DNA of 64,000 nt from Candidatus Rokuibacteriota bacterium (GTDB lineage Bacteria; Methylomirabilota; Methylomirabilia; Rokubacteriales; CSP1-6), in NCBI GenBank assembly GCA_003220225.1, contig QHRU01000035.1, positions 62,001 to 126,000 of the forward strand. Reading direction: 5' to 3'. The notes under the pieces are model-generated. The model was not told the origin of the DNA and made no database searches. It saw nothing but the letters and a program-made list of their open reading frames with translations. The position numbers and the translations under genes are program-made. Positions 19,330-61,693 of the stretch are shown here, one piece after another. The stretch's first letter is position 1. Each line of letters starts with the position of its first letter.

Positions 19330-19442
19330 ATGGGGGACTCGAAGTCCCCCATACCCCCTGATCGAGGCCACTCGACGTCCCCCATCCCCCCTGAGGCCGG
19401 CCACTCGAAGTCCTCGACGTCCCCCATACCCCCTGAGGCAGG
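19330..19442. repeat. Tandem repeat with hairpin at the 5' end of the LspA-like gene
   Basis: About three degenerate units of 33-40 bases share ACTCGAAGTCCCCCAT followed by CCCCCTGA. The first unit starts with a perfect 10-bp stem (19330-19339 with 19343-19352, loop cga). The units keep an open frame, and each encodes Ser-Pro-Ile-Pro-Pro. No spacer structure like a CRISPR array is present. Confidence 0.75.
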
Positions 19443-43430: not shown

Positions 43431-44806
43431 AGCGCCGCGCCGTCGTCCCCGCGCTGGCGGTCCTCGGCCTCGCGCTGTGGCTGCCGCCGTGGCTCGCCGA
43501 CCTGCCGCTCGCCGGCCAGCGCGCGCTGCTCGTGATGCTGATCGCGATCGTGCTGTGGACGAGCGAGACGCTGGAGCCCGGCGTCACCGCGCTGCTCGCC
43601 GTCACCCTGCTGCCGCTCAGCGGCGCCACGCCGACGATGCGCGCGGCGCTGCAGGGGTTCGCGAGCCCCGTGCCGTACTTCCTGGTCGGCGTGCTCACGA
43701 TGGGCGCCGCCGTCGTGAAGAGCGGGCTCGCGGAGCGGCTGGCGCGCACGATCCTCGAGCGCGCGCGCGGCCGCAGCCTCGCCGTCTACGTGCAGCTGGT
43801 GCTGGCGTTCCCCGTGCTGACCTTCGTGCTGCCGTCGGCGACGACGCGCTCGGGCATCCTCATCCATATCTACGACGAAGTGTTCGCGCTGGGCCGCGTG
43901 CCCCGCGGCGCCGACATCGCGAAGGCCGTGATGCTGGCGCTGTCCTCGATCAACCGCCTCGCCTCCACGGCGCTGCTCACCGGGGGCATCACGCCGGTGA
44001 TGAGCGCGGCGATCATCGGCGGGCTCTCGTGGACGGGCTGGTTCGCGCTCATGGCGGTGCCGTACTGGGCGATCCTGGTGCTGGGCGGCCTCCTGACGTA
44101 CGCGCTCTACCGGCGCGGCTTCGCCCACGGCCTGCCGGTGCCCGAGCGCGAGCGTCGCCGGCCGATCTCGGGCACCGAGTGGCGGACGCTGGCGATCATC
44201 CTGGGCGCCTCGGCGCTGTGGCTCACCGACCCGCTGCACCACCTCGATCCCGCGATCCCGGCGCTGCTGGCCTTCGCGGCGCTGCTCACGCCGGGCCTCG
44301 GTCCGCTCGGCTGGTCCGATCTCGAGCGCGGCGTGGGGTGGGCGAACTTCTTCGTCATCGCGGCCTCGATCTCGCTCGCCCACGCCCTCGACGCGAGCGG
44401 CGCGGCGCCGTGGCTCGGACGCCTGCTCGTCGGCGGCCTGCCCGGGCTGAGCCGGAGCGCCGTCGGTACGATCGTGTTCCTCGTGCTGGGGGCCACGCTG
44501 CTCCGGGCGCTGGTGCCGAACATCTCGGCGTTCCTGGCCCTGGCGCTGCCGATCGCGATGTCCGTCGGCCGCGAGGCGGGGCTGAATCCGGTCGTCTGTG
44601 CGCTGGCGGTGATGATGACGGGCGACGCCGTCGTCTACTACCCCGCGCAGAGCTCCTCCGCGCTCGTCATCTACGAGCGCGGCCACGTCTCGGCCGGCGA
44701 GATCTTCCGCTTCGGGCTCTGGATGACGCTGCTGGGCTGGGTGACCGTGCTCGTCGTCGCGCTGCCGTGGTGGTCGCTGGTGGGCGAGCCGTTGATACCA
44801 CGGTGA
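43427..44806 (+). CDS. SLC13/DASS-family anion transporter
   Basis: The 459-residue polytopic membrane protein has about 12 helices of the divalent anion:Na+ symporter type (dicarboxylate, sulfate and similar substrates). The segments SETLEPGVTALLAVTLLPLSG, SSINRLASTALLTGGITPV, GWANFFVIAASISLAHAL and PNISAFLALALPIA are typical. No ATG, GTG or TTG is in frame near the expected N-terminus; the likely start is CTG 43427 in a CTGA overlap with the DsrE-like gene. The final 116 bases are duplicated downstream, and the actual C-terminus (EPLIPR) differs from the one encoded by the downstream copy (EPLTGP), pointing to a rearranged 3' end. Confidence 0.82.
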   Translation: MKRRAVVPALAVLGLALWLPPWLADLPLAGQRALLVMLIAIVLWTSETLEPGVTALLAVTLLPLSGATPTMRAALQGFASPVPYFLVGVLTMGAAVVKSGLAERLARTILERARGRSLAVYVQLVLAFPVLTFVLPSATTRSGILIHIYDEVFALGRVPRGADIAKAVMLALSSINRLASTALLTGGITPVMSAAIIGGLSWTGWFALMAVPYWAILVLGGLLTYALYRRGFAHGLPVPERERRRPISGTEWRTLAIILGASALWLTDPLHHLDPAIPALLAFAALLTPGLGPLGWSDLERGVGWANFFVIAASISLAHALDASGAAPWLGRLLVGGLPGLSRSAVGTIVFLVLGATLLRALVPNISAFLALALPIAMSVGREAGLNPVVCALAVMMTGDAVVYYPAQSSSALVIYERGHVSAGEIFRFGLWMTLLGWVTVLVVALPWWSLVGEPLIPR

Positions 44807-45010
44807 GGCGGGCGCTTCGAGCGCCGGCTTTGCCGGCGCCATCGATCTTTGGGGGAGGCATCGGAGGGGGCCGTCGAGGCCCCCTCCGAATGAAAGCGCG
44901 GTCACGTCTCGGCCGGCGAGATCTTCCGCTTCGGGCTCTGGATGACGCTGCTGGGCTGGGTGACCGTGCTCGTCGTCGCGCTGCCGTGGTGGTCGCTGGT
45001 GGGCGAGCCG
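44676..45010. repeat. 116-bp direct duplication of the transporter 3' end flanking a palindromic insert
   Basis: Bases 44676-44791 and 44895-45010 are identical apart from one C/T difference (44683 versus 44902). Between them lie 103 bases not present in the gene, made up of two strong hairpins. The second copy runs into a different stop (ctgaccggtccttag), probably the ancestral gene end. Confidence 0.9.
44821..44889. repeat. Two strong hairpins inside the duplication (family 1 repeat)
   Basis: An 8-bp perfect stem with a ttt loop (44821-44839) is followed by a 12-bp perfect stem with a 5-base loop (44861-44889, arms TCGGAGGGGGCC and its complement). The second belongs with the GGGGG-type palindromes at 2861, 12793 and 61661. 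They could end transcription from both sides, as the next gene is convergent, though no T-run follows. Confidence 0.75.
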
Positions 45011-45021
45011 CTGACCGGTCC

Positions 45022-45726
45022 TTAGTGTCTCGCCACCCATGCGAGCACCGCCGGGACGAGCTCGCGCAGGCAGCGACGGCTCAGGACGAGGCCCCAGTGT
45101 GACGCGTCCGCCTCGAGCCAGTCCGACGTCAGCGGCAGATCCGCGTAGCGGCTGCGTGGCCACTGCCTGTCTTGCGTGCCCACGACGATCAGCAGCGGAC
45201 ACGGCAGCCGAGCGAGCACGATGCCGGCCTGCCGGTCGTCCCGCGCGAGCAACGACTCCGGGCCCAGCGAGGCGAGGGCGATGAGCCGCTCGTCACGATC
45301 GAGATCGGGCATCATCGCGTCCTGCCGGTCCGGATCGCGATCGACGATGCCGTACGCCTCGGGCCCGAAGACCCCGGGGCGCAGCGGCACGCGAGGATCC
45401 CGTTTCGTCGCCGGCGTGCTCGGGGCGAGCCCCACGCACGCGTGCGCGCCGCCGCGCGCGGCCGCCATGAGTGCGGCCAGCCCGCCCATGCTCCAGCCGA
45501 CGAGCACGGGTGGGGTGCCGAGCCGATCGATCGCACGCCGGACGTCGTCGGCGTAGTCCGCCATCGCCGTGTGGGCGAGGTCCGCCCGCGGGCCGTCGCC
45601 ATGCCCGCGCAAATCGAGCGCGTCGGCGGTCACGCCGTGCGCGGCCAGCGCGGCGCGCCAGTACGTCCAGACGCGCGCCGAGTTGGCGGCGCCGTGGACG
45701 AGGAGGAACGGGGGCGAGGCGCTCAG
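45022..45726 (-). CDS. Alpha/beta hydrolase
   Basis: A 234-residue alpha/beta-hydrolase fold is encoded if translation starts at CTG 45726. This start is needed to include the oxyanion strand FLLVHGAANSARVW, since the first GTG (45633) would cut it off. The nucleophile elbow is GWSMGG, the acid is probably in VVGTQDRQW, and the His in DASHWG. It lies 1 base after the gltD stop on the same strand, so it is probably the last gene of the gltBD operon. Substrate is unknown; no lid-domain feature points to a particular class. Confidence 0.78.
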   Translation of the reverse strand: MSASPPFLLVHGAANSARVWTYWRAALAAHGVTADALDLRGHGDGPRADLAHTAMADYADDVRRAIDRLGTPPVLVGWSMGGLAALMAAARGGAHACVGLAPSTPATKRDPRVPLRPGVFGPEAYGIVDRDPDRQDAMMPDLDRDERLIALASLGPESLLARDDRQAGIVLARLPCPLLIVVGTQDRQWPRSRYADLPLTSDWLEADASHWGLVLSRRCLRELVPAVLAWVARH

Positions 45727-61610: not shown

Positions 61611-61683
61611 ATGGCCGGGGGAGTCCGAGGGGGGCGTAGCCCCTTTCGCTTGAAGGATCTGGGGGGCCATATCGGGGCCCCCC
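61611..61683. repeat. Two family 1 palindromes in the lutA-lutB gap
   Basis: The first palindrome (61627-61645, GAGGGGGGCGTAGCCCC) resembles the one at 12793. The second has GGGGGGCC (61661-61668) pairing with GGCCCCCC (61676-61683) and nearly copies 2861-2883. The last stem base is 10 bases before the lutB ATG, leaving no usual ribosome site. The rest of the gap (61555-61610) shows nothing recognisable. Confidence 0.75.
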
Positions 61684-61693
61684 ACGACGATCG

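Follow-up and report, generated by a model that had tools for sequence, protein, structure and literature searches.

A two-hairpin repeat of Candidatus Rokuibacteriota that can lie between long direct repeats of gene ends

The stretch of DNA analysed here, called the window, is 64,000 nucleotides long and corresponds to positions 62001-126000 of contig 108 in a 6.03-Mb draft genome of 167 contigs. On its forward strand, from 43511 (the start of the analysed part) to 44806, lies the gene of a DASS-type transporter, assigned by the Pfam family Na_sulph_symp (PF00939, 8.5e-38) and reading in frame to a TGA stop. The end of this gene occurs twice in the same orientation, with the upstream copy T1 (44676-44795), which belongs to the working gene, being repeated in the repeat search of the window as the downstream copy T2 (44895-45014) over 120 nt, of which 118 are identical (98%), at a start-to-start distance of 219. 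The duplication of a gene end around a hairpin-rich insert, claimed in a sequence-only reading of this stretch, is therefore real. In the transporter frame the upstream copy ends GEPLIPR before the stop TGA and the downstream copy ends GEPLTGP before the stop TAG (45023-45025), the two stops having the same offset. The pair has a score of 230, while only 3 of 1082 shifted control sites reach 45 (one of them at 290), so that the duplication cannot be ascribed to chance.

Between the two copies, three stretches follow one another on the forward strand. The first, X (44796-44814), is a novel stretch of 19 nt that gives the transporter gene its stop TGA and is matched over its full length nowhere else in 1.55 Mb of collected sequence. 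The second, E (44815-44889), is a dispersed element with two hairpins, where hairpin 1 (44821-44839) has an 8-bp stem and hairpin 2 (44861-44889) has a 12-bp stem, as defined by repeat search, folding and pairing, with its outer base representing the fixed end of the element. The third is a spacer of 5 nt (44890-44894) that leads to T2. The whole insert folds with -50.9 kcal/mol (z -4.2). Downstream, on the reverse strand, lies a convergent alpha/beta hydrolase gene (open reading frame 45022-45633; Pfam Abhydrolase_6, 2.5e-16), the stop of which overlaps the stop of T2. It is noted that a 25-nt inverted repeat inside the transporter gene (44658-44682) extends across the left boundary of the duplication, the position of which it may or may not have determined. 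Two more strong G/C hairpins are present in the window, at 19330-19352 and 61660-61684, neither of which is E.

The element E is a dispersed repeat of about 75 bp of Candidatus Rokuibacteriota. A search with the insert gave 50 matches in the genome of the window (hereafter the own genome, G000), and the profile match at the locus covers 44816-44889 with an E-value of 8.4e-21. The sequence-only reading had assigned the insert to a repeated family, its family 1 type; the assignment is valid genome-wide and fails within the window, because E occurs there only once and all further profile matches there have E-values above 1. From the 50 aligned copies (mean column identity 90%) the consensus is TCGAGCGCCGGCTTTGCCGGCGCAATC-nnn-TCCTGGGGGAGGCnTCGGAGGGGGCCGTCGAGGCCCCCTCCGA, the two ends of which do not form clear inverted repeats. 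The stems are well preserved, with standard pairs in 99.8% of 1000 pair cells over the 50 copies, and in hairpin 1 two of the eight pairs vary on both sides (12 cells). Some copies have a longer or different second module, and in a longer variant (L025, L026, L031, L037, L040 and L093) an extra hairpin is found between the two common ones. A scan of the window against Rfam at gathering scores returned three tRNAs only, with E matching no RNA family.

Among the relatives located via the DASS transporter are soil genomes of Candidatus Rokuibacteriota, of which seven show 75-90% identity. A search of 40 relatives found E in 27, namely in all 27 of its order and in none of the 13 from other families of the class.

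To see how the copies of E are flanked, 166 distinct copies were gathered and 300 nt on each side were compared with other copies masked; 7 copies were skipped, leaving 159, and the 1082 controls were sites in the same loci shifted by 800-6000 nt. Strong flanking direct repeats, defined by a score of at least 45, occur at 13 of the 159 copies vs 3 of the 1082 controls, where the copies, drawn from part of the matches and, for some matches, from the surrounding 20-kb stretch, form a non-random sample. The strong cases divide into 5 of 45 copies from the own genome and 8 of 114 from other genomes. Since three loci (L076, L172 and L209) were fetched via genes with a duplication already known elsewhere, the count without them is 10 of 156; in a smaller, earlier set it was 10 of 119 vs 0 of 602 controls. 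The search for other copies of the element flanked by long direct repeats, which the sequence-only reading had proposed as a check, thus gave a positive result.

The placement of the two repeat copies relative to E is asymmetric. In all 13 strong cases the right copy begins 3-7 nt after hairpin 2 (at 3 nt in seven cases, 4 nt in four, 5 nt in one and 7 nt in one) and is 33-130 nt long. The gap between the end of the left copy and E measures 0-79 nt, the only exception being a comparison made inside an array (255 nt). Weaker cases with similar placement are L259 (16 nt), L275 (12 nt), L021 and L031, and at L259 the 16-bp repeat spans an ATGA stop/start overlap. By Pfam, the genes at the duplication sites belong to nine unrelated families, namely the DASS transporter, an ETF subunit, an Ldh_2 dehydrogenase, TctA, NuoF, fumarase, RNase J, thiolase and QueA; at L006 the repeat looks like the start of an opposite-strand gene resembling an acyl-CoA dehydrogenase. 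Both tail copies keep the reading frame up to a stop in 13 of 13 pairs, 11 of which have the two stops at the same offset. Most pairs are 94-100% identical and then diverge abruptly. In addition, arrays of the form T-E-T-E and T-E-T-E-T occur at L101 and L130.

We then consider the same gene junctions in relatives, where it is noted that all the named relatives are draft metagenome assemblies. At queA/tgt, 17 of 19 loci lack E, with the two genes directly joined, and E with a duplication is present in G000 and G015, with the duplication starting at different places in the two; in the congener G002, which has no E there, the queA stop runs directly into tgt and the tail is nearer to T2 than to T1. 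At nuoF/nuoG, 17 of 20 loci lack E, including that of the congener G001, and the junction is filled in G000, in G002 (T-E-T-E) and in G015 (T-E-T-E). The filled junction of G000 (L165) holds a head-to-tail array of three E that parts nuoF from nuoG, two genes that nearly abut or overlap in the relatives. At thiolase/hbd, 14 of 17 loci lack E and the junction is filled in G000, G001 and G002, the cases of G001 and G002 having been found after the tally and standing outside the 13 of 159; it is also filled in G018, a locus that had already been collected as a carrier of E. Between G000 and G001 the thiolase duplications have a common start, X differs beyond easy alignment and T2 is well kept. 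In the filled junctions T2 runs on into the downstream gene as the upstream gene joins it at sites without E. The comparison with relatives lacking the insert, proposed beforehand for the locus of the window, gave at these three other junctions directly joined genes without E. At the thiolase/hbd locus of G002 (L279), E is followed by a thiolase tail copy and then by a remnant like the tail kept in G000 and G001, a layout that looks as if two rounds may have taken place. At the thiolase end in G025 (L294), a degenerate hairpin 1 of E lies behind the stop with no recognisable hairpin 2.

For the DASS transporter itself, seven Rokuibacteriota loci can be compared, of which one (AR5) has E and a duplicated end starting at about the same base as that of the window, three have E only and three are without E. 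In L073, L074 and L075, E stands behind the transporter gene and a second tail is absent, with one of the three E being degenerate. The two copies are 98% identical within the window and 93% within AR5, vs 78% between the genomes, and the thiolase copies of G001 and G000 are likewise more alike within than between genomes, which calls for either gene conversion or several events at the same place. The proposal that TGP is the original end of the transporter is not supported by the relatives, with the tails of L071, L073, L074, L075 and AR5 ending in Arg-stop and thus being nearer to IPR, and that of L072 ending in Gln; yet the downstream copy with TGP is the one that abuts the stop of the neighbouring hydrolase gene.

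The sites without E in relatives imply that the starting state is A-T-B, where T is the stretch at the junction of an upstream gene A and a downstream gene B, and that X, E and the spacer arrived together with the second T. Together with the arrangement recurring at unrelated genes, the fixed right junction and the two in-frame copies, all seen directly, this leads us to propose that E probably, if with only modest confidence, inserts with a long target duplication of variable length, so that overlapping or abutting genes both stay intact. Based on this proposal, on entry of E the junction A-T-B would be converted to A-T1-X-E-spacer-T2-B, with 12 to 130 bp of the target directly duplicated. 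The inserted DNA would have one fixed end, lying 3-7 nt beyond the outer base of hairpin 2, and one loose end, given by an X of 0-79 nt. In packed operons a usable A and a usable B would result only if the duplication spans the region of the A end and the B start, and such insertions would for that reason be the ones observed. We infer that E and the duplication arise from one event, with a stagger of tens of bases in the cut or strand exchange, and that selection decides which sites survive. An insertion with an unusually long target duplication, one of the origins offered in the sequence-only reading, is hence the best fit to the sites without E, and it recurs at other copies. Against this model it should be said that the left boundary of the inserted DNA is not fixed, unlike the ends of an ordinary transposon. 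The longest X, that of L006 with 79 nt, has no other match in the own genome, and for nine X stretches compared with the collected 1.55 Mb a full match was likewise absent. Also against it are the mobiliser families tested, none of which follows E, and the copies at DASS and thiolase that are more alike within than between genomes.

It is also noted that many copies of E lie beside convergent genes. A convergent open frame ends within 80 nt to the right of E in 84 of the 155 copies with enough flank, and in 62 of these 84 the stop is 0-6 nt from hairpin 2, with none at 7-13 nt. On the left side the distances are broad (median 30 nt, n=99), so that hairpin 2 is again the anchored end. A strong duplication occurs at 0 of the 62 copies with a tight convergent stop vs 13 of 90 others (Fisher p 0.0008; 3 of the 155 are without a duplication test), and weak left copies with a score of at least 12 occur at 2 of the 62 vs 0.28 expected. 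This contrast is not predicted by a plain target-duplication model. Either the tight-stop copies have had old duplications that decayed, where the left copy would be unconstrained, or the copies have a different origin.

The duplication by template switching has to be weighed against the target-duplicating insertion. Here the growing strand would copy an E located elsewhere together with part of its left flank (X), leave just past hairpin 2 and re-enter upstream, so that T is copied twice with no transposase needed. The two have the same product and differ in the agent: an enzyme making a staggered cut and a polymerase returning upstream would each yield A-T1-X-E-spacer-T2-B. The right breakpoint lying always just beyond hairpin 2, the arrays at L101 and L130, and the finding that none of the tested mobiliser families tracks E all agree with template switching. 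So does a perfect 60-nt tandem duplication of an etf gene tail on the minus strand of L130, which lies before the first of two tandem E, has its breakpoint inside the first arm of hairpin 1 and is a slippage scar at the hairpin; for the replication slippage at the palindrome that had been suggested for the window, support has come from this one other locus. By contrast, template switching predicts a donor flank, and the X of L006 is unmatched elsewhere in the own genome; nor does it alone account for the about 50 dispersed copies. We regard it as an unlikely explanation that nevertheless deserves serious weight.

A still less probable explanation, to which we give little credence, is that the tail of a donor gene A was imported with E by homologous recombination and was then joined illegitimately at the E hairpin to the resident tail. 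This would explain why both copies are full coding tails with the same stop offset in 11 of 13 pairs, and why the thiolase tails of G000 are of two types, REWA and KDPA. Over the 13 tail pairs the codon differences comprise 26 synonymous and 20 non-synonymous ones, an excess of synonymous changes over what two freely drifting copies would show (p 5e-6, with 25% assumed for such copies); however, about 57% synonymous (26 of 46) is also roughly what codon comparison would lead one to expect for one constrained and one free copy. If a donor allele had entered, the abrupt change from 94-100% identity to divergence in most pairs would not be expected, and upstream of T1 in queA the identity to the close relative shows no drop, remaining at 0.98 and 0.88 in the last two 60-nt windows, so that no long imported tract is seen in queA.

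That E came first at a gene end and the tail was duplicated afterwards by slippage is very improbable: L073, L074 and L075, with E behind the DASS gene and no second tail, speak for it, but T2 is joined to gene B as closely, or with the same overlap, as at sites without E, which means that E has native sequence downstream of it and does not separate the original end from B. An assembly artefact, conceivable in that all the assemblies are drafts, can practically be dismissed, because unrelated genes in several separately assembled genomes show the arrangement, with copies that differ in bases and flanks.

Returning to the insertion with target duplication, bacteria commonly carry small palindromic repeats, and the duplications described here are a direct trace of the event that placed one of them, with one junction fixed to a few bases, the length of the copied target given and sites without E available for comparison. 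E can enter packed operons because the stretch shared by the two genes is copied, whereby the upstream gene retains its end and the downstream gene its start region, which suggests that the entry of E is a route for the evolutionary separation of overlapping genes. In the literature searched, with most subscription papers outside the search, no report was found of long variable duplications for a tiny palindromic repeat, nor of E in Rokubacteria. Tentatively, then, E may be the first example of a class of minimal palindromic elements that have an exact end (3-7 nt beyond the base of a hairpin) and a loose one, make target duplications that are long and variable, are moved by an undescribed enzyme or host process and invade overlapping-gene junctions with neither gene inactivated.

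More generally, E is best explained as a small non-autonomous dispersed palindromic element of Rokuibacteriota, and it can be compared with several known systems. REP and REPIN sequences are short palindromic high-copy repeats, many of them near stop codons, that are mobilised by RAYT transposases, and E resembles them in being short, palindromic, of high copy number and often near stop codons. REP elements reportedly carry a GTAG or CGTC tag beside the hairpin, which the consensus of 50 copies of E lacks, and we know of no REP insertions with long duplications. The Y1 transposase (PF01797, RAYT) gave no match in G000, G001, G002, G015, G018 and G019; it is present in 6 of the 27 genomes of the order of E and in 11 of the 13 from other families of the class, all of which lack E. 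A RAYT-driven REP is thus rejected, PF01797 being missing from the own genome and from most E-bearing genomes. Reverse transcriptases (RVT_1) gave 3 matches in G000 and 1 in G015 and none at an E-value of 0.001 in G001, G002, G018 and G019, a presence that is not consistent across the carriers of E. With MITEs, E has in common that it is small, non-coding, dispersed and present or absent at the same junction among relatives, and it differs from them in that its duplication is long and variable (that of MITEs being short and fixed), that one end is loose and that the ends are not clear inverted repeats.

In the duplication itself there is a likeness to IS1549/IS1634 (IS1634 family, formerly in IS4), for which a review describes direct repeats of 8-514 bp with variable length and states that no model had been proposed (PMC2266710). 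E shares the long variable direct repeats, 33-130 bp in the 13 strong cases and shorter at L259 and L275; IS1549 and IS1634 are, by contrast, full insertion sequences with a transposase, while E is about 75 bp long and has no gene. The IS1634 transposase (NF033559) is found in none of G000, G001, G002 and G015 and is above the cut-off in 3 of 26 genomes (G011, G012 and G033), and its absence from G000 rejects IS1634 as the mobiliser in the own genome, where the two matches to DDE_Tnp_1 are IS1380 and IS5. With E, the puzzle of the long variable target duplications of IS1549/IS1634 becomes testable in a second, simpler system.
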